A stretch of DNA of 25,573 nucleotides. Origin: a virus. The DNA lies in IMG/VR virus record IMGVR_UViG_3300028197_000140, positions 1-25,573 of that record; one strand, 5' to 3'. The translations under genes were made by a program, and so were the position numbers. Shown in pieces: positions 1,097 to 18,161 of this stretch. The notes under the pieces were generated by a model that made no database searches, was not told the DNA's origin, and was given only the letters and a program-made list of their open reading frames with translations. Position 1 is the first letter of the stretch. Each line of letters opens with the position of its first letter.

Positions 1097-3766
1097 TTAC
1101 TCTCCAAAGTCAAACAACGTATTAAATGTATTGTTTTGCTTAGTATCTTCTAAGTCATAGTTCAACACACCGATTAAGTTGTCTAGTTTATTATCAATAA
1201 TTGTTGATTCCATTGCTACATCATCAAACGGCAGTTCTTTAAACCAGTCTGGAATACGTAATTCATCTGTTGGATATGCGACACTAGTATACCCTAGTGG
1301 ATTTTGTTTTAGTTTACAAACAATAACTTTCATACCGTCAACAATTTCTTGTGAATACTTGTCACCGTTCATACGTCTTAGTGTATTCCAGTTAATACTT
1401 GCTCTAACATGTCCTGGCATATTTGCCTTGCCTTGCTTTTCTTCTAGTCGACGATAGTGGCCAACTTTATTTGCACGTTTAGGTGAACCTTTTTCAAAAC
1501 CAGGACGTAATTTGAACTCTTTACGGAATTCTGTAATACGATCTAAAACTTTTCTTTCTTCAACATCAGTAAGTACCATAAGTAATAATTCACTTAAAAA
1601 CTCTTGCATAAACACTGGAGTATCTGAGCGTCTTAAATCAAGACCCATTGCTTTTACTTTACCTGGGCTATCTTCAGAGTCACTTCTAAAACCTTCAATG
1701 TCATATACTAATGCCGCATAACGTTTTTTAGTAATATACAAACCACTTTTTGCTACAATCTCTCTACCTGCCGCAATAACGTCCGACCGACTCTTCGGAC
1801 AATGAAATGCATCTACCATAAACCCTTCAAATGTAGCATTTGCCGCTTCACATACTTGATCATAAAGTGTAATAACATTCTCTTTACTCCAAGGAATAAC
1901 ACCTGCGTCAATATCTTTCTTAAGAGTAGGATATGCACTAAAGTATACAGAGTCTGTATCTCCATAAATTACTGAGTCACCTACGTGATCATATGTACCT
2001 GTAATAACCTTGTTTACTTCGGCACTCATATGCTTCACAATAGTTCTACCACTTAGTGTAGTTGACTGCCCAATACGTTTATCAAAGAATCTACAACCTG
2101 GATTAAGGATAGCACCATACAAACTATTCAAGTTAATCTTTTTAACTAACTGTCGCTTATCCCAATACTCGATTTCGATCTTATTATCTGCATCTTTTGC
2201 CTTTTTAAGATGTCCTTGTAGTTCTTTACGTTCACTATACCAACGTTTAAGTAGTCCTGGAATAACACCTTCGTGTTCTGTTGTAAAGATTGTACCATTT
2301 GAACTAAGCATCCAAGGTTTGTTGCTATCAAAGATTACTTTGTATATTTCAGCACCACTCATAACTTCTGTTTGACCGTCTTCAAAGTCAATAGTTAAGG
2401 CAATAGACTTACTTTGAGCCATAACTGCTTCATATTCTTCTGTACTAAATCGACCTTCCCAACTACCTGCGAATGACTTCTTCTTCAAGCCCATATCTTC
2501 TGTTACACGAGCGTCACTAATCTCAGGACGTATTTGTCCAACAACTGTTGCCGGATCCATATTCAAGGCACGAATTACACTAGGGTATAGACTGTTTAAA
2601 TCCATTGAACCAATCCATTTGTGTAACCCTTTTTTAGGAAATGCCACATACGCACCTGCGGCTTGTGTGTTCTCGTCATCACGTTTAGGGCGATTAGGCA
2701 CTTGCATACCACGTCTGTGTGCTTCGTTAACAATAGCTTGTTCTGTAACTGCTACTGCACCCATTGTAGTCTGTAATAGTACAGTATTTGCATGTGCTAG
2801 TTCGTTACTAAGGTCAATAAATCTTAGTTTTTTGTCCAGCTTGTCCAGTAGTGCGGTATCTTGTATGTTATATTCGATGAACTTTCTAAAGTCATTGTTG
2901 TACAGTTGATCCAAAGTACCTTCATAAGGAACCTTATTCTCACCAACTTCAACTTCACCAATTGCATCAAGTCTATATGTATGTCGTTCTTCATATGTGT
3001 ATTTACGATATAATTCTAAACTATCTAAATGCACTCTACCTATGAAGTCATAGGTTACTGCTTGTTTACCGTATTTTTCATACTCACGCTTCTTAGGAAG
3101 TTGACCCCATAGACAAAAACGTCTTGTATCATCTTTACTTAAAACTCTTTGTGTACGGTTTACAGTATAAGGAATATCATAACCTTCACTGTTCCAACCT
3201 GATAAAATATCTGCATCTTCAATTAGTGTTAAGAAAGTGTCAATCATTTCACCTTCTTTTTCAAACAACATTACGTTGTCAATACCTTCAAGCTCTGCTT
3301 TTGCTTGATCCATAGTAAGTGTTTTAGGAGGAACTGCTAAACATATCATAGTTTCCATCCACTGTAAGTATACAGAGATACTTGTAATTGGCATAAAAGG
3401 ATCTGCAGGATCAGCAAAGCCTCTCTCTGGATCAAAGTCAGTCTCAATATCAAAGAATGCAATGTTTAGTTTTGGAGCGTCTTGATTAAGATAGTTTTCA
3501 CTCAAGCACTGGAAGATAGGATTAATATCACTTTCAAACATCTTCTTGCCTTTGTTAATAGCAAGTTCTTTACGGAATTCTTTTGTATTTTTTGTTACAA
3601 TTCTAGTTAATGGATCACCATATATACTCTTATACTTGCCTCTTTGATCTTCATAGTAAAAAGTATATTTGATTGGATATTCGTGAAACTTTCTCTTGCC
3701 GTCTTTGCGTTCTACAACACGGATTATATCACTATCTCTATCAAAATGTGCGTCTACGTAACTCAA
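1097..3766 (-). CDS. 43: Family B DNA polymerase, T4 gp43-like
   Basis: Replicative DNA polymerase with 3'-5' proofreading, 889 aa against 898 for T4 gp43. Exonuclease motifs: Exo I FDIET (D106, E108), Exo II around 189-203 (N192, D197) and Exo III Y299-x3-D303. Polymerase motifs: motif A D389 with SLYPS (392-396), motif B around K542-G551 (NSLYG), motif C YGDTDS (601-606). All catalytic residues are present and there is no intein or split, unlike some T4 relatives. The start is TTG at 3766, directly abutting the TAA of the upstream oxygenase gene, with AGGAGA 5 nt before it; no closer ATG fits. It should act with the phage sliding clamp and clamp loader, which are not in this window. The downstream cupin begins one base after its stop. 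Identification is secure. Confidence 0.97.
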   Translation of the reverse strand: MSYVDAHFDRDSDIIRVVERKDGKRKFHEYPIKYTFYYEDQRGKYKSIYGDPLTRIVTKNTKEFRKELAINKGKKMFESDINPIFQCLSENYLNQDAPKLNIAFFDIETDFDPERGFADPADPFMPITSISVYLQWMETMICLAVPPKTLTMDQAKAELEGIDNVMLFEKEGEMIDTFLTLIEDADILSGWNSEGYDIPYTVNRTQRVLSKDDTRRFCLWGQLPKKREYEKYGKQAVTYDFIGRVHLDSLELYRKYTYEERHTYRLDAIGEVEVGENKVPYEGTLDQLYNNDFRKFIEYNIQDTALLDKLDKKLRFIDLSNELAHANTVLLQTTMGAVAVTEQAIVNEAHRRGMQVPNRPKRDDENTQAAGAYVAFPKKGLHKWIGSMDLNSLYPSVIRALNMDPATVVGQIRPEISDARVTEDMGLKKKSFAGSWEGRFSTEEYEAVMAQSKSIALTIDFEDGQTEVMSGAEIYKVIFDSNKPWMLSSNGTIFTTEHEGVIPGLLKRWYSERKELQGHLKKAKDADNKIEIEYWDKRQLVKKINLNSLYGAILNPGCRFFDKRIGQSTTLSGRTIVKHMSAEVNKVITGTYDHVGDSVIYGDTDSVYFSAYPTLKKDIDAGVIPWSKENVITLYDQVCEAANATFEGFMVDAFHCPKSRSDVIAAGREIVAKSGLYITKKRYAALVYDIEGFRSDSEDSPGKVKAMGLDLRRSDTPVFMQEFLSELLLMVLTDVEERKVLDRITEFRKEFKLRPGFEKGSPKRANKVGHYRRLEEKQGKANMPGHVRASINWNTLRRMNGDKYSQEIVDGMKVIVCKLKQNPLGYTSVAYPTDELRIPDWFKELPFDDVAMESTIIDNKLDNLIGVLNYDLEDTKQNNTFNTLFDFGE

Positions 3767-5644: not shown

Positions 5645-6460
5645 TTACATCTTTACACAGTTGTCTACAGTCTTGCCGCCCTTTTTCTTTGTTCCCATAC
5701 GTTTGTAACCCTTCCAACAAGCCTTGCCATCTACGCCTTTTTGCTTTTCTGTTTCTGGTAATGCATTGTATAATTTGTTACTCAAGTAATCTTCGTATGA
5801 TTCGTTTTCTGTAGTTTTGTCGTTATAACGTTTGTCGCCAGCTTTCATTCTTTTGTAAGCAGGTGTATTTAATTTCTTATCAGCGTCAGTAACATCCATC
5901 TTATCTGGGGTAGCCTTCTTCGGCTCTGGCTTTACTGATTCTGCAACTTTAGGATCGTTACAGTTACAATGCTTACAAGTAGGAGCACATTTGCAATCTT
6001 CTCTTTTAACATCTGCACCGCAACACTTGTCTGAACAATGTGTATCTTTTTCTGATTCTTTAATGTCTACTTTTTTAGGCTTGTCGTGCGTCCAACCTTT
6101 TTTTGCTAGGTCTATATGATCTTGTTCTTTGTTAGCTTTCTTACTTTTACCATCTTTATACATAGTATGTGGTTCAAATTTGTCAGCTTTTTTAGCTTCA
6201 GATACCTGTTCAAATTGTGTTTCATAATCTAAATGATGATATACACTACCTAAGTAGTCTGCGGCTTTAGTAATCTTTGCTTGTACCCAACCTTCAAGAC
6301 CTTGTTCTTCACTTACACCTTTAAGCATTTCGTGTAGTTTAATACCGTATTTTGCAATCTTGTATAAGTCGGCTCTAGCCATCTGTACTTCATGGTCTTG
6401 CTCAACCTTATAAGCCATGTCAGCTAATCCGTTTTCATTCAAGTCTTTTTCTCTCATCAT
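5645..6460 (-). CDS. Putative prohead-interior protein with Cys cluster
   Basis: A 271-aa protein of a kind I recall from T4-like marine phages. The N terminus has LNE (7-9), a candidate prohead-protease motif. A helical conserved domain spans about 14-80 (YKIAKYGIKLHEML, GWVQAKITKAADYLGSVYHH). A Lys/Asp-rich linker includes eight cysteines within residues 142-167, in CxxxCC, CxC and CxxCxC spacings, suggesting a metal-binding insert. The C terminus is basic with a cysteine pair (C248, C268) around KRMGTKKKGGK. Start: ATG ATG at 6460/6457; the second is better spaced from AAGGA. A GATAAATA box just upstream (6476-6483) suggests its own late promoter. Function unknown; a packaged or structural head role is inferred from neighbours. 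Confidence 0.8.
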   Translation of the reverse strand: MMREKDLNENGLADMAYKVEQDHEVQMARADLYKIAKYGIKLHEMLKGVSEEQGLEGWVQAKITKAADYLGSVYHHLDYETQFEQVSEAKKADKFEPHTMYKDGKSKKANKEQDHIDLAKKGWTHDKPKKVDIKESEKDTHCSDKCCGADVKREDCKCAPTCKHCNCNDPKVAESVKPEPKKATPDKMDVTDADKKLNTPAYKRMKAGDKRYNDKTTENESYEDYLSNKLYNALPETEKQKGVDGKACWKGYKRMGTKKKGGKTVDNCVKM

Positions 6461-6475
6461 ATTATCCTTATAATG

Positions 6476-6483
6476 TATTTATC
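6476..6483 (-). promoter_or_regulatory. T4-type late promoter box GATAAATA
   Basis: GATAAATA on the minus strand, close to the T4 late consensus TATAAATA, overlaps the stop codon of the 99-aa gene and lies 15 bases before the ATG at 6460. The resulting leader would be very short but still hold the ribosome site. The box matches those next to phoH exactly. The position is plausible but may be chance in AT-rich DNA. Confidence 0.45.
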
Positions 6484-6778
6484 TTTTGATAGTTTTGCCG
6501 CCCATGATATTGTTACTAATATCTAGTGCATTTTTAGCAGTTCCGTCTGAATTTTTCTTTTGTGGAGCCTTAGGAGCACCATATTTGTCTTTTCTCTTAG
6601 GCTTATGATATGCCGCATCTGGACTTGCTACTGTAGCTATATTACCTGCTGATGTTGCACCTGCTGTTGCAGTTTCCTTTACTGATTCTCCGGCATGTAT
6701 AGCGGCCATATGTTTTTTGTACTTTTTAGTACCTTTTTTATGTGGGCTTTTACCTTCGATAATCTCGTTAATTAACAT
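6479..6778 (-). CDS. Small basic putative prohead-interior protein
   Basis: A 99-aa, very basic, low-complexity protein. The N terminus reads MLINEIIEGKSP: I-N-E (3-5) and I-I-E followed by G (6-9). The second fits the T4 gp21 prohead-protease cleavage pattern [L/I]-x-E before a small residue. After it come Lys-rich stretches (HKKGTKKYKKH), an Ala/Thr-rich segment, and KPKRKDKYGAPKAPQKK. Charge and size resemble the DNA-associated internal proteins of T4 heads. The ATG at 6778 follows GAGGAA and overlaps the end of the 269-aa gene by 11 bases. No enzymatic motif is present. I recall similar small proteins in marine T4-like phages; the head-interior role is inferred. Confidence 0.75.
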   Translation of the reverse strand: MLINEIIEGKSPHKKGTKKYKKHMAAIHAGESVKETATAGATSAGNIATVASPDAAYHKPKRKDKYGAPKAPQKKNSDGTAKNALDISNNIMGGKTIKR

Positions 6779-7577
6779 TTAATTTCCTCTTTTTATCTTT
6801 ACGCAAATAGTCAATTAGTTTTTTACCGCCATAAAGTAATGCTACTACTGCCGCCGCTGGTAAAGCGTATTTTACAGCCATATTAGACATGTTTTGTATT
6901 GTAGATGGATTTACATTTCCGCCTGTAACTTTACTAATGCCATCTGCCCATTGTGAAGCTGTTTGCGGGTTTGAATTAGCCAATGCACTCGCCGCACCTT
7001 CATCTTTTACAATGTTAGGTAAGTTTGCTACTGCTGGTGGAATACCGCCACCGTCACCTGCATTTGGGTTATTATCCTGTCCAGTTTGTTTAGGTTTTAC
7101 AGGTGCTTTTGGAGTAACTTTTGGTGTTATTGCTGTTGTTACACCTCCAGGATTTCCACCGTCTCTAGGTTGTGTTACTGGTAACTCTTTAGGAGCATCG
7201 TTTGGTTTAGCAACAACATCGTTTGGTGCTACAGGAGCAGTCATACCCTTAAATTCAAAAGGAACTTCTGTTGATCCTGTAATATTCTGAAACATTTTTA
7301 GTAATTCTGGTGTAGGGCCTTTAGCTATACGCTGATTAAATTCTTTTGCCGCGGCGTCTGCTACTCCTCTATCTTTACCTTGTGCTATAAGTGAATTATA
7401 AATTTGTGATGCTGGACTCATATCACTATATGCTCCTGCTGGAGAAGGAGTTAATGCCCCAATAATAGCACTTGCTGGTCCACCGAGTGCTTTACCACCT
7501 AACCATTTTAACCCACCTAATATATCAAATTCATTTAACGGTGGTCTAATATCTGTTGTAAGTTCTCTTAATAACAT
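6768..7577 (-). CDS. Putative virion-associated protein with C-terminal membrane segment
   Basis: A 269-aa protein. The N terminus has L-R-E (3-5) and L-N-E (14-16), again the prohead-protease-like pattern. Residues 20-45 are Gly/Ala-rich and mildly hydrophobic. A Pro/Asn/Gly/Lys-rich disordered middle (about 115-185) has several PKxTPKAPVKPK-like runs. Near the C terminus is one hydrophobic segment (about 236-250), followed by LLYGGKKLIDYL and a very basic tail (RKDKKRK). That TM-YGGKK module recurs in the 691-aa and 64-aa proteins of this window. It could be an ejected protein acting at the host membrane, or an internal head protein (inference). The ATG at 7577 has AAAGG about 11 nt upstream and starts 4 bases after the 691-aa gene. 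Confidence 0.75.
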   Translation of the reverse strand: MLLRELTTDIRPPLNEFDILGGLKWLGGKALGGPASAIIGALTPSPAGAYSDMSPASQIYNSLIAQGKDRGVADAAAKEFNQRIAKGPTPELLKMFQNITGSTEVPFEFKGMTAPVAPNDVVAKPNDAPKELPVTQPRDGGNPGGVTTAITPKVTPKAPVKPKQTGQDNNPNAGDGGGIPPAVANLPNIVKDEGAASALANSNPQTASQWADGISKVTGGNVNPSTIQNMSNMAVKYALPAAAVVALLYGGKKLIDYLRKDKKRKLNVN

Positions 7578-7581
7578 ACTA

Positions 7582-9657
7582 CTATTTACCTTTCTTTTTA
7601 CGTCCAGACTTCATATTTGCACACCAGTGATACATTTTAGCACGTTCACCACTTGCGTTCTTTGCTTTCTTACGTAGTTCTGTGACACTACCGTTACAAC
7701 TAGCACCAGACTTCTTTACTCTTCCTGGCTTGCTTTTACCACTCTTCTTGCCATCAGCAAAGTTTTCTAATAAGTCTAGTACTTGATCAGTAGTATAAAG
7801 TCCACTTATAAGAGCCTCTTTTGCCATTTTAGTGGCAGTTGCGTACATAACAGCATCAGCATCTTTGCCGTAACGGTCTTTAAAGTCGCCTTTATTCTTC
7901 TTCATACCCTTGACGTTTTTTTCTTTTTTCTTTTCTTCGCCTTTGGTAAGAGTACGTTCTTCTACTTCTTTTTTAGTAATTTGTGGAAGTTCAGCTCTAG
8001 CATAGTTCTCTTTTACAGATTTAAGTTTTTTAAGATCTTTATCTGATTTAGGTGCATAACCTTTTAAAATTTCTTCTAGTTCTTCTTCTGATATTGTATC
8101 AGGATCTTTATCTTTTAACACATTATAAAGTTTTTTCCCACCATATAAAGCAACAACACCTAATGAAACAGGTATTGAGTATGCGTATAACCAAGATAAG
8201 CCTTTTAAAAAAGATGCTAAAATTGGTCCTGTCCATGGTAAACTAAATGTACCTAAACTTGTTTTAGGATTACGTCTAATAAATCTTCCTAAAAATTTAA
8301 TTGAAGCTAAACCAAAACGGAAAGCAGGAATAACCCATTCTTTTAGTTGAATATCTTCTTCAACTTCTTTTTTACGGCCTAATGAATCGTGATCATATCT
8401 CCACATTTTGCCAGGCTTAACAAGTTGCATTTCTTTTTCTAATTCTGATTCTCTGCGAATTAACTTTTTTAGTTCGTCTCTTCTATCTTTCCAATTTGGA
8501 TCATTGTAAATATCATCAATTGCTTTTTGAACAGCAAAGAGTTCATCTGCTCTGCCTTCTTCTACAGGCTCTTGCATGTGTTGCTTAATATCTTTTGCAG
8601 TTCTTTCGAACTTGTGATCTTTGTGTTTAAATCCAATACCACCTGCGGCTTCCCAACTAGCAATATTTTTACCAAAGTCGTCAATTAATATGTTAGGTGT
8701 GCCATCTTTATTTGTAGCATATTGTGCTTTGTTACTGTCAATGATTACACTACTTGGCATAAAGTCTTGTAGATTATTTTTAATCCATTCTTTCTTTTGT
8801 GGAATACTATTTTTATCTCCTGGTAAAGGACTGCTTAATATATTATAAGATCCTTTTACTTGTTTAATAAGAGATAGTAAATTATCTGCATTACTAGTTT
8901 TTGGTAAATTAATCCAGAAGTCTTTTTTATCTTTAATTTTCTGTAGTGCAGGTTCTAAATCATCGCCCTTTATTTGTCGCCAGTCTTTACCTGTTAGCTT
9001 AGTCCAAGATCCAAAAAAGTCTGCTAATACTCCGTCCATGTCAACAAATATTTGGCTTGTACTAGCTATTTCGCCCAATTCTTCTTTCATATTAGCATAG
9101 TATAACATACTTTCATCGGTGTTGTCAACTAATAATTTTTGAATTTGTCTTAAAAGTGGTATTGTTTCGGTAGGGAATTTGTTTTTTTGTATAAATGATA
9201 TAAACATGTTATAAGAATTATTCAAGTCTCTAATAAACTTTTTAGGATCTTGTTTTGCTTGAATTACTTTACCTATGTGTCTAATTCTTTGGTTCTGAGA
9301 TTTCCATGGAAATTGCCTGCCAACTGTTCTTTTCCATATTGCTTCGGCTCTTGCTTCTAATTCTAGTGCTTGTCCAATATGTAAAGCTGGATTTTTAGAT
9401 TCAGCCAAACCTAAGTTGAATAATACATTTGTTTTAGAACCTTTTACCTTTTTTGATAGTGTAGGTGGGCGTCCATCTTTGTCTACTTTGTTACCAAACT
9501 TAGCGGCTTGCTTCTTAATACCATCAACACCGACATCTGCTGTAGTGTTAACACCTTTTACAATACGTCCACCATTTTCGTGTATACGAAGATAGTGTTT
9601 AAAACTTTTATTTTTAGGAACTTTATTTTCGAGATCTTTTATGTTATAAAATTTCAT
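7582..9657 (-). CDS. Multidomain virion-type protein with HAD 5'-nucleotidase-like domain
   Basis: A 691-aa multidomain protein. Residues 20-30 carry a candidate cleavage motif (I-H-E, 25-27). A HAD-like domain spans about 202-345: nucleophile motif DMDGVLAD (206-213), motif II serine in LSSP (274-277), a lysine near 289, and the DD pair in LIDDFG (D326-D327). This is the layout of the small 5'(3')-deoxyribonucleotidase-like HAD phosphatases. Then come a charged helical stretch (380-440), hydrophobic segments (about 442-460 and 474-507) ending in ALYGGKKLY, a long Lys/Glu linker, and a basic C-terminal module with C654 and C679. The ATG at 9657 overlaps the upstream stop (ATGA) with GAGGA before it. 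HAD assignment is good; a role as packaged or injected enzyme is inferred. Confidence 0.8.
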   Translation of the reverse strand: MKFYNIKDLENKVPKNKSFKHYLRIHENGGRIVKGVNTTADVGVDGIKKQAAKFGNKVDKDGRPPTLSKKVKGSKTNVLFNLGLAESKNPALHIGQALELEARAEAIWKRTVGRQFPWKSQNQRIRHIGKVIQAKQDPKKFIRDLNNSYNMFISFIQKNKFPTETIPLLRQIQKLLVDNTDESMLYYANMKEELGEIASTSQIFVDMDGVLADFFGSWTKLTGKDWRQIKGDDLEPALQKIKDKKDFWINLPKTSNADNLLSLIKQVKGSYNILSSPLPGDKNSIPQKKEWIKNNLQDFMPSSVIIDSNKAQYATNKDGTPNILIDDFGKNIASWEAAGGIGFKHKDHKFERTAKDIKQHMQEPVEEGRADELFAVQKAIDDIYNDPNWKDRRDELKKLIRRESELEKEMQLVKPGKMWRYDHDSLGRKKEVEEDIQLKEWVIPAFRFGLASIKFLGRFIRRNPKTSLGTFSLPWTGPILASFLKGLSWLYAYSIPVSLGVVALYGGKKLYNVLKDKDPDTISEEELEEILKGYAPKSDKDLKKLKSVKENYARAELPQITKKEVEERTLTKGEEKKKEKNVKGMKKNKGDFKDRYGKDADAVMYATATKMAKEALISGLYTTDQVLDLLENFADGKKSGKSKPGRVKKSGASCNGSVTELRKKAKNASGERAKMYHWCANMKSGRKKKGK

Positions 9658-9869
9658 TTTTTACGTCCTCGAAATGATACAGGACCATTAAGGTATGGTT
9701 TAGTAAACCAAAGTTTAAACCAGTCAGCATCTCCAGGCTGGATATTTAATTTTTTTTGTTTGTCTTTGAGTGCTTGTGCAGTATAACTAATATTTTCTAA
9801 ACTAACTGGTTGATAACCTTTGAATTCGTTTATACCTGCTAATTTTTTAAGCTGTTGAATCTCATCCAT
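9654..9869 (-). CDS. Small conserved phage protein, unknown function
   Basis: A 71-aa protein. The N terminus reads LKKLAGINEF (7-16), with I-N-E (13-15) fitting the candidate prohead-protease pattern. The middle is polar and helical. The C terminus has PGDADWFKLWFTKPYLNGP (45-63), a Trp/Phe-rich motif I recall from small proteins of marine T4-like phages. A related LAGA segment occurs at residues 171-174 of the 289-aa protein upstream. The ATG at 9869 lies 3 bases after the nucleotidyltransferase stop with only a weak ribosome site (GAGTGG). The 3' end overlaps the next gene by 4 bases. Function unknown; it may be a small structural or scaffold component. Confidence 0.75.
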   Translation of the reverse strand: MDEIQQLKKLAGINEFKGYQPVSLENISYTAQALKDKQKKLNIQPGDADWFKLWFTKPYLNGPVSFRGRKK

Positions 9870-9872
9870 ATC

Positions 9873-10832
9873 TTAACCACTCTTTACAACTAACTCGAGG
9901 CCTAAGTTTTTAAATAAACCTGTAATACCAGAAACTGATTTTAATGCTTTATCCATCAATTGTTGATTATCTTGTGGTTGATTGTCATAGAATGCTATAA
10001 ACCTTTTTGCTGTTTGTGGATCGATATATACTTGTCCACCAGTTGCGGCCGCACCATCTCCAGTATCTTTATAGCTTAATGGAAATGATGTATTGTCCTT
10101 ACGCATTGCAATATTATTGATAACATCTAACTTAGGGCGTTGTTGCTTAACAGCATATTCGTCTATATCTAGTTCATCTAATACTTCGTCAGGAGTAGTT
10201 AGAACTTCGAATGAATCATGTTCGTGTTTAGGATCATCTGCTTCTTCCACAGGATCAACACCCATAGCACCTTGAACTGATTTAAATAATTTATCTGCTA
10301 GATCTTGTTTTGGTACGCCTTGCTTGAATGAATCAAAGTCGTTATTAAGTGCCGCAGATCTCATTTTACTTGCACTCATACCTTCAGCACCGTCAGCATC
10401 TGGGTCTCGGTCACCTGCACTAATAACACTAATGCTATTAAATTTGTACGGAACAACACCTGACTTATCGGCTACACCGTTATACTGATTAAAAAGTTTA
10501 TCAAATCCTTCTACTCTATCAGATCCTGCTACATAGATAACATCAGAGTAACCTAGTTCTTGTAGCTTTTGTAACATTTGTATAGGTGTCCGTACTTCCG
10601 AATGACCTACAGTAATATTTGGAAAAAACGACTTGGTAAATGCAAGTTTAGTATCAAAGTCTAAAGGATCTGTTTTAGCTTTTTGAGTCTGTGATAAAAA
10701 AAGATAAGGGTCACCATCTTTTGATAGTATTGTATTAACAAGTTTTTGATGACCAATAGTTGGAGGATTTAGTCTACCAAATGCAACTACTGCTGTTTTA
10801 CCTTCAGCTTCAAATAAATTTCGTAGGCGCAT
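9873..10832 (-). CDS. Cytidylyltransferase-like nucleotidyltransferase with capsid-targeting-like N terminus
   Basis: A 319-aa protein. Residues 12-190 form a nucleotidyltransferase domain of the HIGH superfamily: AFGRLNPPTIGH (17-28, the T/HxGH site at 25-28), a GSD loop (103-105), and SASKMR (153-158), matching the ISSTxxR-like second motif. These enzymes transfer AMP or CMP to phosphorylated substrates such as NMN, pantetheine phosphate or glycerol phosphate; the substrate is not clear. The remaining 130 residues are an acidic linker and an unrecognised domain. The N terminus L-F-E then A (6-9) is a very good match to a T4-type prohead-protease site. The ATG at 10832 has GGAGG at 6-nt spacing and overlaps the previous gene by 23 bases. 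Enzyme fold likely; packaging is inferred. Confidence 0.8.
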   Translation of the reverse strand: MRLRNLFEAEGKTAVVAFGRLNPPTIGHQKLVNTILSKDGDPYLFLSQTQKAKTDPLDFDTKLAFTKSFFPNITVGHSEVRTPIQMLQKLQELGYSDVIYVAGSDRVEGFDKLFNQYNGVADKSGVVPYKFNSISVISAGDRDPDADGAEGMSASKMRSAALNNDFDSFKQGVPKQDLADKLFKSVQGAMGVDPVEEADDPKHEHDSFEVLTTPDEVLDELDIDEYAVKQQRPKLDVINNIAMRKDNTSFPLSYKDTGDGAAATGGQVYIDPQTAKRFIAFYDNQPQDNQQLMDKALKSVSGITGLFKNLGLELVVKSG

Positions 10833-11151
10833 TCATTTCCTCCGGTGGATTCTTTTCGTAGTCTACTATGTTTTGTGCAAGTTCTGCTTTTTCTTCGGGT
10901 GTTATAAGCGTCTTAGGATCGACTGACAGATCATATTTTAATACATAATGGTTACAACCAGCATTAATCATTGGCATTATATGCCCTTGTATAACATCTT
11001 CGTTATAATCACTTTTACATTTTTCGATTGCTGGGAGGTAATGCTTTCTATAGAACATAGTATCATTGAGCATATGATATTGTAAGTCATCACATACATC
11101 AAACGGTAATTTATCTACATCGTCTTGTTTAAAAAATTCATCTATTCTCAT
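10810..11151 (-). CDS. Conserved phage protein, unknown function
   Basis: A 113-aa acidic, soluble protein. The N terminus MRIDEFF has I-D-E (3-5). A conserved-looking core, DDLQYHMLNDTMFYRKHYLP (about 22-41), is followed by MINAGCNHYVLKYDL, then a charged C-terminal helix. I recall similar short proteins in T4-like marine phages with no assigned role. The frame opens further upstream at 11208, but that part lies inside the previous gene; the ATG at 11151 sits one base after the previous stop with AGGAAA upstream and is preferred. The 3' end overlaps the nucleotidyltransferase gene by 23 bases and contains its GGAGG ribosome site, so the two are probably translationally coupled. Confidence 0.75.
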   Translation of the reverse strand: MRIDEFFKQDDVDKLPFDVCDDLQYHMLNDTMFYRKHYLPAIEKCKSDYNEDVIQGHIMPMINAGCNHYVLKYDLSVDPKTLITPEEKAELAQNIVDYEKNPPEEMNAPTKFI

Positions 11152-11152
11152 A

Positions 11153-12022
11153 TTACCATTTCCTACATGACCAATAACGTGCTTTAGTACGTGGTCCTGG
11201 GTTATCACAATTATGTCTTGCTCTAAAGCTCTTACGTCTTTTTGGATTATTCTTTTTAATGCTCATTGCTTTACCTTTAACACTTGAGCCACCATGTCCA
11301 AAGTTTACTTTTTTAATGTTACCCGTCTTAGGGTCTTTTACATATACTTTAAATTTCTTAACATCACCTTGCATTGGTTTACCAAGTTTAACTTTACGTC
11401 CTTGGTACTCTGCTTCATCCATAATGTCATCTTCATTGTACCACATTTCACCATATGCTTTGTAGAAGTCATCATCATCGTCATATGTTTCGTCAATACT
11501 TGCACCAGCAAGTGTTTTAATTCTATCAAGTTCTAAGCTCTCGTTATCATCATCAGGTAAATTCTTTGCTTGTGCATATGCTTTTTTAAGCAAACCCATG
11601 TTTATTTTCTCATCAGCTTTTATATCAATTCCCTTATGAAAGAATCCTTGAATGTCAGAGTAATCAGAATCCATATAACCTGCCATATCTAAATCATGTA
11701 ATAAATTTCCTAATGCAAAACGCATCCTTTCACTTGTATACCCACCATCTTTTTTAGCATCATTGTACATGTCTACTAAATGTTTCATTACATTTGCTTT
11801 TACTCTGCGTGGATCAAACTCATCATCTTCTACACCTTCTTCACCGATAGATTCTTTTTCAGCTTTACTATATTTGTCTTTAATGCGTCCTAACTCTTCT
11901 TGACTAGCACCTTCACGTCCTGCTTTAGCGGCTTTGTCCATATATTCTTTACCATGTTTTTTCACACCAGTATAGTATTGTAAGCCACTTTCTTCTAGAT
12001 AATCTTTAAATGTCTTAGTCAT
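11153..12022 (-). CDS. Putative internal head protein with T4 IP-like N terminus and basic Cys-pair C terminus
   Basis: A 289-aa protein. The first residues, MTKTFKDYLEES, look like the capsid-targeting N terminus of T4 internal proteins (T4 IPI begins MKTYQEFIAEA); L-E-E then S at 9-12 would be the cleavage site. A conserved segment follows (YYTGVKKHGKEYMDKAAKAG, 16-35). An acidic middle has a DDDDD run (181-185). The basic C-terminal domain (about 220-289) has KFKVYVKDPKTGNIKKVNFG and ends RARHNCDNPGP and ARYWSC (C272, C286), a module I recall at the end of several virion proteins of marine T4-like phages. The ATG at 12022 has AAAGGA at good spacing; a longer frame start at 12097 lies inside the upstream gene and is rejected. 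Exact function unknown. Confidence 0.8.
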   Translation of the reverse strand: MTKTFKDYLEESGLQYYTGVKKHGKEYMDKAAKAGREGASQEELGRIKDKYSKAEKESIGEEGVEDDEFDPRRVKANVMKHLVDMYNDAKKDGGYTSERMRFALGNLLHDLDMAGYMDSDYSDIQGFFHKGIDIKADEKINMGLLKKAYAQAKNLPDDDNESLELDRIKTLAGASIDETYDDDDDFYKAYGEMWYNEDDIMDEAEYQGRKVKLGKPMQGDVKKFKVYVKDPKTGNIKKVNFGHGGSSVKGKAMSIKKNNPKRRKSFRARHNCDNPGPRTKARYWSCRKW

Positions 12023-12032
12023 CGTTTTTCCT

Positions 12033-13751
12033 TTATCTTGATTTAGAATTGTAACCCGGAGTCGGTGTTTGTTGGTCATCATTCCAATTAAAGCCACCGC
12101 CAGTTATTACATTTCCACTCTTCATTTGTGTCATTAAGTCATTAGCATCCTTGAATATTGTATAGTCTAATGTATCTGTTCTTAATAACATTACAGTTGT
12201 AATACCATCTGCTAAATGATAGCTAGAATACGCAATTTTAGAATATGCAATATTCATTGTTACCATGTCAACTGTCGTATATATTCTACCGTCAGGGTAT
12301 TTCTCCGACGGTGGCTCTTTTTCTTGGTTAATAGCTTCCATAATTAGTTTCTTTGGATCAAAAGGAACATGATGTTTATTAGGAGTACCATCTTGATTAG
12401 TTGCTGGTTTACCTAAAGCATCATAATTTTGTACTAGTGCTTTAATTGTTGAAATAAACAAATCAGCTGTTTGCTCTGGAGTTGCATAAGGTTCTATTAC
12501 TTCAGCATTAAGAGCGTCAAAGCCTTTCTTGTTCCAGTTATATTTGCTACCTTCTTTGGCTTTGCCTTTAATAACATTATATTGATTACCGTTATACTTA
12601 TTTGCTTTTATTTTTATAATTTTACCATCTTTTTGTTGAACATTAATTGTTGCATCTTTGTCTGCTGATTGCATTATTTCGTTTATCTTCGCTGACCATA
12701 CTGCCCAGCCAGTAGTTGCTTTTGCAATAGATTTACTATTAAAACGTCCACCTGTTTTTGCACTAGCTTTAATTTCTATTTCCTCATCACCAATCTTAAG
12801 ATCACCCTTCTTGCCTTTTTCAGCAGGGTTACCCATCATTGATAATGCCATTTCACCTGGACCAATTGCACCTGATGTTGTACCCGGAGAGTAACTAAAA
12901 ATATTTTCTTGTACAAAAACATCAAATACTTTTTTATACTCTGGATTAACATGATCCTTAATATTACCACTAGGAGTTGAAATAACTTTAAGCATATTAA
13001 TTACTTTACCATCTACACATGCTTGTAAAAATCCTTTAATTTCTTCTTGTGTAACATCACTACCTTCTTGCATATCAAGTATTTTTCCAAACAATGCTTG
13101 TTTAAGAGTTTTTGTAAACTTCTCTGCATTAACAGACATTTTTTTATAAGAAGATCTATCTCTAGAGGTCATAGAACTTGTATCTACATCATTTTGATAT
13201 CCTTGTACTTTGTTACCTAGTGTAACTAATACACCTGTTACTTCTTTAACAAAGTTAATTGCTTCGTCACGTTCAGAACGAGCTGAATCACGTTGTGCTC
13301 TTAACATTTCAAAGTCTTTTGTTAAGTTGTCTAAATTTTTAGTAAAGTTACTCAAAACATCTTGCTTTTGTTTTTCGTCCATTGGAATAGTTTCAAGCAT
13401 TTTAATATTCGTTGCTAACTCCTCAAGATCTACTTGTGCCTTTGCGTCAGCTTTTTCAAGTTCTTTAACTGAGTATAATTTTTGTTGTACGTTTGGGTTT
13501 GCTTTTGCTTCAACAGTTGTATCTGTAGGTACATCTCCCTTTGCTTTTACTACAAAGTTTTTTACTATGTCATTAAGTTTACTAATTCTATCATATAGAT
13601 CTAATTTTTCTTGATTTTTTTCAGCAGGAATCTCAGACATAGCTTTACTAATAGTTTGTATGTCATGAACAGCATGTTGGATTTGCAGGCCTTCGTTAGC
13701 TTCTGCTAATTGCGATTCATTAATAGATTTCTTTATATTCCAAAATCTCAT
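12033..13751 (-). CDS. Coiled-coil protein with PD-(D/E)XK nuclease-like domain
   Basis: A 572-aa protein. The N terminus carries I-N-E then S (10-13) and L-A-E then A (15-18), the second an excellent prohead-protease-type site. Residues about 30-225 are charged and helical with coiled-coil character (RAQRDSARSERDEA, 151-164). Residues about 295-345 show a PD-(D/E)XK nuclease signature: E300 in GPGEMAL, D317 in KGDL, E326-x-K328 in EIEIKAS, then GGR and a basic region. This is the usual order E, D, ExK of restriction-endonuclease-like folds. The C-terminal 200 residues are not recognised. ATG at 13751 overlaps the upstream stop by one base (TAATG). If the motif is real, this is a nuclease encoded among virion genes; structural annotation only is the fallback. 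Confidence 0.75.
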   Translation of the reverse strand: MRFWNIKKSINESQLAEANEGLQIQHAVHDIQTISKAMSEIPAEKNQEKLDLYDRISKLNDIVKNFVVKAKGDVPTDTTVEAKANPNVQQKLYSVKELEKADAKAQVDLEELATNIKMLETIPMDEKQKQDVLSNFTKNLDNLTKDFEMLRAQRDSARSERDEAINFVKEVTGVLVTLGNKVQGYQNDVDTSSMTSRDRSSYKKMSVNAEKFTKTLKQALFGKILDMQEGSDVTQEEIKGFLQACVDGKVINMLKVISTPSGNIKDHVNPEYKKVFDVFVQENIFSYSPGTTSGAIGPGEMALSMMGNPAEKGKKGDLKIGDEEIEIKASAKTGGRFNSKSIAKATTGWAVWSAKINEIMQSADKDATINVQQKDGKIIKIKANKYNGNQYNVIKGKAKEGSKYNWNKKGFDALNAEVIEPYATPEQTADLFISTIKALVQNYDALGKPATNQDGTPNKHHVPFDPKKLIMEAINQEKEPPSEKYPDGRIYTTVDMVTMNIAYSKIAYSSYHLADGITTVMLLRTDTLDYTIFKDANDLMTQMKSGNVITGGGFNWNDDQQTPTPGYNSKSR

Positions 13752-14017
13752 TAAACACTTACCTCAATATCAAAGTTATCGTATCCTAGATCAAATAGTT
13801 TATTTGCAATATCGTTAGCAACATCATCTGATTCGCTTTCACCTAATTGCTTGTGTGTTTGTACAGTAAGAACAGTTTGACCTTCTTCAGTATCGTATAA
13901 ATCGTATGAAGTTTCATCTTCCAGTAATGCTACAGTAGCTGAACCAGTTACTTCTTCTACTACAATTTCGTCTACTTCTTCTACTTTGTCAAATACGATA
14001 TTAATATAATTTTGCAT
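13751..14017 (-). CDS. Small acidic protein, unknown function
   Basis: An 88-aa, strongly acidic protein (many Asp and Glu, few basic residues). Alternating hydrophobic and acidic residues suggest beta strands in the first half (VEEVDEIVVEEVTGSATVALL) and a helix in DDVANDIANKLFDLGYDNF near the end. There are no cysteines, membrane segment or catalytic motif. The high acidity and small size could fit a DNA mimic, scaffold or chaperone-like piece, but nothing specific supports any of these. ATG at 14017 has AGGATAAG upstream. The gene overlaps the start of the 572-aa gene by one base (TAATG), so the two are likely coupled; a partner or chaperone for the nuclease-like protein is possible (inference). 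Confidence 0.7.
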   Translation of the reverse strand: MQNYINIVFDKVEEVDEIVVEEVTGSATVALLEDETSYDLYDTEEGQTVLTVQTHKQLGESESDDVANDIANKLFDLGYDNFDIEVSV

Positions 14018-17345: not shown

Positions 17346-18161
17346 CTATATTTTATTTCTCATTCGCTCAATTCTTTGTATGTCTTCAGGCTCTAATCTA
17401 GTAGGAACTTTTGTATTAATTCTAACTAGTATATTACCAGTTCTTCCATTTTTTCTATCTGGAAGTCCCTTACCGTTAATACTAAAAACTGTATTTGGTT
17501 GTGTTCCTTTTGGAATATTTAACTTAACCGATGTCTTGTCGGGTAGTGATATTGGTATAGATGTACCTAAAATACAATCAAAAACTCCTATATCTTGTAT
17601 AGTTAGTAGATTTATACCATCAAGTTGGAACTTTCTATCACTTTGTATAGCAATTAATACATACAAGTCTCCGGATGGTATTTGTTGTATATCATGTTGG
17701 CCCATTCCTGCATATCTAATTCTGTCATTGTTACTAATTCCTGGTGGTATTTTAATTTCAACTGTTTGTTCTTTTCCGTTGTTTAATCGATAAGTTGCCA
17801 TAACAGTTTTTCCAGAATATACTTCAGCTATACTAACATTACATCCAATAGTAATATCTTGGTTACGCATTTGTTGTCTTGCACCGAATCCAAATTGGCC
17901 CATTAAGTCGTTGATATCAAAGGCTCCATTAAAGCCTCCGTTTTGGAAATGCTGTGAATTAAATTGTGGTTGGGGGTTGTCGTACTGTTGTCTTTTTTGG
18001 GGATCTTTTAACGTACTATATGCTTCGTTAATTTGCTTAAATCTAGCATCATCGCCTCCAGTCCTGTCAGGATGGTGTTGCATACTTAATTTTTTGTATG
18101 CTTTTTTAAGATCTGTTTCTGAAGCGTTCTTTTCGACACCTAGTATGTTATAATAGTCCAT
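17346..18161 (-). CDS. dnaJ: DnaJ-like co-chaperone, type II (CbpA-like)
   Basis: A 271-aa J-domain protein that should stimulate host DnaK ATPase and deliver substrates. The J domain covers 1-65 with the HPD motif at 30-32 (QHHPDRTGGD). A short Gly/Phe/Gln-rich linker (65-100) follows, then two beta-barrel substrate-binding domains; IPPGISNNDRIRYAGMG and LNIPKGTQPNTVFSINGKGLP are the paired CTD signatures. The cysteine zinc finger of type I DnaJ is absent, so it is CbpA-like and shorter than the usual 300 or more aa, lacking the dimerisation tail. ATG at 18161 has no clear Shine-Dalgarno. It lies next to clpA. Phage J proteins can redirect host DnaK to capsid assembly or replication; which applies here is unknown. 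Confidence 0.92.
   Translation of the reverse strand: MDYYNILGVEKNASETDLKKAYKKLSMQHHPDRTGGDDARFKQINEAYSTLKDPQKRQQYDNPQPQFNSQHFQNGGFNGAFDINDLMGQFGFGARQQMRNQDITIGCNVSIAEVYSGKTVMATYRLNNGKEQTVEIKIPPGISNNDRIRYAGMGQHDIQQIPSGDLYVLIAIQSDRKFQLDGINLLTIQDIGVFDCILGTSIPISLPDKTSVKLNIPKGTQPNTVFSINGKGLPDRKNGRTGNILVRINTKVPTRLEPEDIQRIERMRNKI

Follow-up and report, generated by a model that had tools for sequence, protein, structure and literature searches.

What unites nine consecutive phage genes whose products all carry the short motif [LI]xE close to their N termini? The genes occupy positions 5645-13751 of virus record IMGVR_UViG_3300028197_000140, of which we analyzed a stretch of 25,573 nucleotides (hereafter the window), a 25.6-kb record from a marine phage with T4-like gene content. 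A sequence-only reading had proposed that they encode enzymes loaded into the phage head, trimmed by a prohead protease and delivered with the DNA. Our best explanation, to which we assign a probability of about 0.8, is that these genes form an island encoding internal head proteins, with T4-like targeting, cutting by the prohead protease gp21 and probable ejection with the DNA. The loading part of the proposal is well supported, because T4-type peptides occur in the island, relatives encode both gp21 and the major capsid protein gp23, relatives of the 319-amino-acid (aa) product have been detected in virions, and the targeting pattern is enriched among virion proteins of cyanophage S-CREM2. 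Packaging of the other eight members is something we infer; trimming by gp21 after the E is likely, and delivery into the host would follow from the T4 precedent only.

In the mechanism that we propose, a short N-terminal peptide would direct each product into the prohead core, as T4 capsid targeting sequences do, and the S77 prohead protease gp21 would then cut after [LI]xE to release a mature enzyme or basic protein. The mature proteins would remain inside the head alongside the DNA, probably to be ejected at infection, and several long members would consist of modules strung together, with additional [LIVM]xE sites between them. The nine members, all on the minus strand, are as follows (arrows follow the E of a candidate site, with its residue number where given):

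12033..13751 (-), 572-aa protein, head MRFWNIK followed by the predicted cut LAE17↓ANEGL
11153..12022 (-), 289-aa protein (phrog_7595) with the strict T4-type peptide MTKTFKDYLEE↓S
10810..11151 (-), 113-aa protein, a weak member, MRIDEFF
9873..10832 (-), 319-aa cytidylyltransferase/NMNAT-like enzyme, MRLRNLFE8↓A just before the enzyme fold
9654..9869 (-), 71-aa protein, MDEIQQLKKLAGINE15↓F
7582..9657 (-), 691-aa multi-module protein (phrog_2643, E=8.6e-24; phrog_12788)
6768..7577 (-), 269-aa protein, MLLRELTTDIRPPLNE16↓FDILGG
6479..6778 (-), 99-aa basic protein, MLINEIIE8↓G and VKE35↓TATAGATSAGNIATV
5645..6460 (-), 271-aa protein, MMREKDLNE9↓NGLADMAYK, with a C-terminal basic cysteine (Cys) module

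A run of nine genes and its replication

All nine open reading frames were present as the sequence-only reading had described them, and each of the consecutive products carries [LI]xE within residues 1-30 (9/9, versus 5/25 other called window genes; Fisher P=3.8e-5), forming the longest such run in the window (gene-order permutation P=0.0005). Because the background is approximately 0.25 per protein per 30 residues, single hits say little, as that reading had itself cautioned. With the 572-aa gene as query we recovered 22 related loci, and the homologous block in relatives forms a run of 11 genes in G004 (permutation P=0.00025) and of 15 genes in G007 (P<5e-5), two runs that are not independent because both genomes are related to the window. 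Some genes at the edges of the G007 run, the polymerase and an 86-aa protein among them, are surely incidental.

Replication was assessed around the HAD gene, which encodes the 691-aa protein. A viral-contig scan with this protein yielded 80 loci, of which we left out four, three as repeats of the G004 group and one lacking gene calls, and two found with the 269-aa protein were added, giving 78 loci and 1056 distinct genes whose starts, as in all uncultured contigs here, are our own calls and possibly wrong in some cases. Between gene positions -4 and +2, the fraction of products with [LI]xE was 0.64-0.84, against 0.06-0.18 for most positions farther out than 7; pooled, 257/349 genes at -4 to +2 (74%) carried the motif versus 78/435 at a distance of at least 7 (18%; Fisher 1e-57, uncorrected for relatedness). 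No island excess was observed in a control using residues 61-90 (61/270 versus 110/346). The fairer test is the one at family level, in which 39 island families averaged 0.58 versus 0.28 for 105 outside families (P=5.6e-4). The loose motif can nonetheless mislead, since the downstream 86-aa family reaches a motif fraction of 0.84 in relatives via plain conservation. That a common three-residue motif was merely noticed in a hand-picked block would fit both this background and the runs of 6-7 genes in T4, C48C1 and S-SCSM1, which are not significant by permutation; given the replication in 78 contigs, G004 and G007, the position-specific conservation and the virion data described below, we find chance scarcely credible.

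The sequence-only reading had also called for a search of the rest of the genome for a gp21-like protease. In relatives, gp21 and gp23 are both encoded in G004, G007 and G011, the three longest of the related records and near-complete, and their gp21 aligns with T4 gp21 over conserved regions. Two of these, G007 (an L008-type record; 357,559 bases) and G011 (383,411 bases), are very large marine T4-like genomes, and the 572-aa family is spread over genomes from about 146 kb to more than 380 kb.

Targeting peptides and virion-associated relatives

In T4, the internal proteins IPI, IPII, IPIII and Alt carry capsid targeting sequences that gp21 cuts after L/I-x-E (PMC9026906), and for the IPIII peptide targeting depends mainly on residues 4 and 7 and processing on residues 8 and 10 (review PMC9026906). 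Like this system, the island has mixed cargo and short peptides at the N termini, in which residues 4 and 7 or thereabouts are hydrophobic and [LI]xE finishes close to residue 10, and near-complete relatives encode the S77 protease. T4 internal proteins are described as basic (PMC9026906), and the island products are more basic than those of the surrounding window genes. Unlike in T4, the genes number nine in a contiguous block and encode larger enzymes, multi-module proteins with internal sites and extra LKxLAG and ATAGATSAGN peptides. PHROGs and Pfam scans of the island proteins named no internal protein, no direct comparison with the IPI-III or Alt bodies having been made.

IPII and IPIII of T4 start MKTYQEFIAEA, and a strict version of the pattern, applied to T4 itself, finds IPII, IPIII and gp61.1. 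Among the T4 matches found, the one nearest to MTKTFKDYLEES belongs to gp61.1 (MKTFKEFIKED), a 54-aa protein annotated as hypothetical (NC_000866 18966-19130, minus strand, locus L241) that may be an unrecognized packaged T4 protein. In marine phages the strict pattern occurs on the 289-aa protein, on the cytidylyltransferases of S-CREM2, S-SZBM1, Syn9, S-SCSM1 and C48C1, and, in Melnitz and C48C1, on further proteins of this island; it is rare beside cyanophage cytidylyltransferase genes (3/327 neighbors). A search of open-licence literature for capsid targeting sequences together with cyanophages matched only a T4 review.

For the 319-aa protein, the predicted nucleotidyltransferase identity was borne out by a match to phrog_3041 (E=3.5e-52) and by conserved GRxNPPxxGH and SASKMR sequences, the GH and SxSKxR-type motifs of nucleotidyltransferases. 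A single-sequence viral-contig scan with this protein gave no matches, and an alignment as query did match. Strict MKSFxxFLxEA-type heads were present on 61/75 distinct cytidylyltransferase N termini from viral contigs, and across 65 aligned heads F4 (64/65), F7 (65/65) and E10 (64/65) are nearly invariant while positions 5, 6, 9 and 12 vary. The window head, MRLRNLFEA, gives no strict match and places [LI]xE at the same point before the enzyme fold, as do the cytidylyltransferases of S-CREM2, S-SZBM1 and other aligned cyanophages. Relatives of this protein have been detected in virions of S-SM1 (T4-GC190; PMC3037559), S-CREM2 (ORF154; PMC10665884), S-SZBM1 (S-SZBM1_140; PMC9146016) and S-SCSM1, there as NMNAT (ORF91; PMC9602691). 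The cyanophage papers report the cytidylyltransferase/NMNAT as a virion-associated enzyme, and we found no tie to a targeting peptide in them. Head targeting would offer a testable reason why non-structural enzymes recur in cyanophage virion proteomes, where the authors could not exclude contamination, would make head cargo predictable from sequence in abundant ocean phages, and suggests that the T4 targeting code is widely used for carrying enzymes.

We then compared the 219 annotated S-CREM2 proteins, with GenBank starts, to the published list of 52 virion proteins. The strict pattern was present in 3/52 virion and 0/167 other proteins (P=0.013), namely the SAM lyase ORF6, the kinase ORF14 and the cytidylyltransferase ORF154, and a relaxed targeting pattern in 7/52 versus 5/167 (P=0.009); the P values carry no correction for the several patterns tried. 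If packaged, a SAM lyase could shield incoming DNA from restriction. If the N-terminal peptide instead addressed the proteins elsewhere, such as to the membrane or a replication site, and its likeness to the T4 tag were convergent, the mostly looser peptides of the window members would be expected, and amphipathic N-terminal helices have many uses. The tagged enzymes are found in virions, however, and the match falls at the positions defined genetically in T4, making a different address very improbable.

As a side observation, S-CREM2 (OR473000) ORF6, ORF13, ORF14, ORF136 and ORF154, comprising the SAM lyase, the kinase, the cytidylyltransferase and two hypothetical proteins, are virion-detected and have T4-type or closely similar heads. 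Basic Cys tails were rejected as a mark of virion proteins (2/52 versus 1/167 in S-CREM2, P=0.14).

Several results weigh against an island of targeted and trimmed head proteins. By permutation there is no significant run in HTVC008M or G011, and N-terminal alignment shows that the HTVC008M cytidylyltransferase lacks the E. A protease family search found no gp21 in the 25.6-kb window, which is a fragment rather than an end-to-end genome. The strict pattern was discarded as a mark of all nine members, since within the window only the 289-aa protein carries it and the other members match the targeting peptide only loosely. The sequence-only reading had held that equal motif frequency in non-virion proteins would count against it, and on this point S-CREM2 gave a split result: the loose [LI]xE failed as a predictor of virion proteins (17/52 versus 39/167, P=0.12), whereas the more specific pattern reached significance. 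The S-CREM2 and S-SCSM1 authors allow for carry-over of enzymes in purification (PMC10665884, PMC9602691), and no cut N terminus has been observed to date.

Cutting sites, modules and enzyme domains

The last point bears on a further alternative, in which the peptides load the proteins and the E stays uncut in most of them, belonging to the targeting helix or to the module that comes next. The 691-aa protein is composed of a GRIVKG module, a HAD 5'(3')-deoxyribonucleotidase-like domain, an RTLTKGEE/YATA module and an NFADGK Cys module. The HAD protein expected in the block matches phrog_2643, with FVDMDGVLADF at the DxDG motif; the Pfam NT5C score of 22.7 bits lies below the 24.8 cut-off. The module boundaries of the 691-aa protein, together with the predicted site of the 572-aa protein, are encoded at:

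13701..13703 (-), E17 codon, predicted cut site of the 572-aa protein
9577..9579 (-), E27 codon, IHE↓NGGRIVKG boundary
9070..9072 (-), E196 codon, LGE↓IASTSQIFVDMDG boundary before the HAD domain
7957..7959 (-), E567 codon, VEE↓RTLTKGEE boundary
7765..7767 (-), E631 codon, LLE↓NFADGK boundary

The NFADGK module is found both on its own, with a head like MRIFELVE↓NFADGK, and as a fusion following other domains. In 48 distinct fused contexts the preceding residue is E in 48/48 and L, I, V or M occupies position -3 in 39/48 (background 0.22; P=4e-18, uncorrected for relatedness), with positions -2 and -4 variable. The same behavior was observed for 18 RxLTKGEE contexts (E 18/18, LIVM at -3 14/18) and for the GLADLA module, whose boundary in 8 fused contexts reads xxE↓GLADLA; V and M at -3 go beyond the L/I of T4. 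An E that is invariant before NFADGK, as a module residue could be, and the missing cut terminus both suit an uncut site. A mere module residue would leave the hydrophobic residue at -3 unexplained, however, which weighs for cutting: a hydrophobic residue at -3, with no constraint at -2 and -4, is what the protease itself recognizes, and cytidylyltransferase heads likewise keep position 9 free while 8 and 10 are fixed. We therefore judge that uncut sites are an improbable general explanation, and the boundary pattern fits a predicted cutting between modules.

From these boundaries we tentatively suggest, at somewhat below even odds, that marine T4-like phages carry modular head cargo, namely polyproteins of exchangeable modules that each follow a gp21-type [LIVM]xE site, some with LKxLAG or ATAGATSAGN peptides. 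The arrangement recalls the giant phages phiKZ and SPN3US, in which many proteins are packaged with the DNA, a gp21-like protease recognizes a short motif and cuts behind its E, and one propeptide of an ejection protein sometimes receives several cuts. It differs in that the cargo is unrelated and that theirs are mostly long propeptides that are removed, whereas the pieces between sites here look like retained modules.

In the 572-aa family, 14/15 divergent heads have [LI]xE followed by A, S, T, N or G (shuffled mean 1.9), close to where an M[RK][FY]xx[FI]K-type head gives way to the conserved start. The 572-aa gene also occurs in a different neighborhood in L001, L002, L003, L009 and other contigs, where the genes around it mostly lack such heads, indicating that the tag goes with the protein. 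The assignment of this protein as nuclease-like is weak. Its C-terminal half, modeled at a predicted local distance difference test (pLDDT) score of 84, contains E300, D317, E326 and K328 (D...ExK), invariant in ten homologues, and fold searches with the full and C-terminal models turned up no solved structure that matches convincingly: the top viral hits were uncharacterized phage proteins, and the best VIA-align row, a restriction endonuclease (Z 2.8, root-mean-square deviation 4.7, 140 aligned), is too weak to count. On this motif it might, at a guess, be a PD-(D/E)xK-type nuclease. By eye, in the large-phage contigs L001, L002, L009, L013 and L021 the gene adjoins Hsp20-, ClpS- and haem-oxygenase-like genes and lies upstream of secreted curli-like proteins.

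Smaller members, shared peptides and neighboring genes

Some members share peptides with head proteins, as located below:

11501..11530 (-), LDRIKTLAGA, scaffold-tail-like motif inside the 289-aa protein
9831..9860 (-), IQQLKKLAGI, scaffold-tail-like motif of the 71-aa protein
6629..6670 (-), ATAGATSAGNIATV peptide in the 99-aa protein, also near the gp23 N terminus in relatives

An LKxLAG-type pattern is found at the C terminus of the scaffold gp22 in G004, G007 and G011; the 71-aa protein has it at its start and the 289-aa protein internally. It is present in 49/349 island proteins versus 4/435 outside, a count with few independent cases because most belong to one family. The cyanophage gp22 tail MxAYVxALSR was not found in other proteins of those phages. 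In G004, G007 and G011, gp23 holds [NS]A[TS]AGATSAGNVATL after LAE, and we can only guess that gp23 is cut there, at the shared peptide. ATAGATSAGN[IV]AT is common to the 99-aa protein and the major capsid protein of these three genomes, near the N terminus.

Such scaffold-like and capsid-like peptides, and the many basic members without a known domain, would be expected if the proteins were head-packaged for a core or scaffold role in assembly or for DNA packing, with no action in the infected host and with enzyme domains kept for other reasons. The nucleotidyltransferase motifs, the nucleotidase-like domain and the S-CREM2 SAM lyase with its targeting peptide look instead like host-cell enzymes, and we hold a purely assembly-related role to be possible and rather unlikely. 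If the island proteins are ejected cargo, as we prefer, the carried enzymes might, speculatively, act against host defenses or adjust nicotinamide adenine dinucleotide (NAD) and nucleotide pools as infection begins.

Conservation of the remaining heads varies. The G004 orthologue of the 269-aa protein reads MRLREITSNIKQPINE↓FDILGG, the L007 orthologue of the 99-aa protein retains its head, and the 271-aa protein has LxE at the same place in its G004 and L007 orthologues. Membership of the 113-aa protein, which the sequence-only reading had counted, is doubtful: the motif is present in the window and G004 and is not kept in the L007 orthologue (family fraction 0.77). Heads of the MTKTFKDYLKEA type are found on relatives of the 289-aa protein in about 14 other contigs. 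This protein ends in a C-terminal basic Cys module, closing with ARHNCDNPGPRTKARYWSCRKW; its basic ARHNC...RYWSC tail (window 11153-11230, minus strand) is also found in pelagiphages Aegir, Kolga and HTVC111P and roseophages CRP-901/902, which have short genomes outside the T4-like group.

Elsewhere the window encodes a DNA polymerase (1097-3766), a PhoH-like protein, a ClpA-like ATPase, an endolysin, spanins and two virion structural proteins, and the adjoining gene previously called DsbA (17346-18161) encodes a DnaJ-type protein instead, with a J-domain recognized by eye. The 88-aa protein directly upstream of the island (13751-14017, minus strand), MQNYINIVFDKVEEVDEI, is similar to the MEHFIRVIMEK heads that some RYWSC proteins carry, and may represent another island member or a relic.

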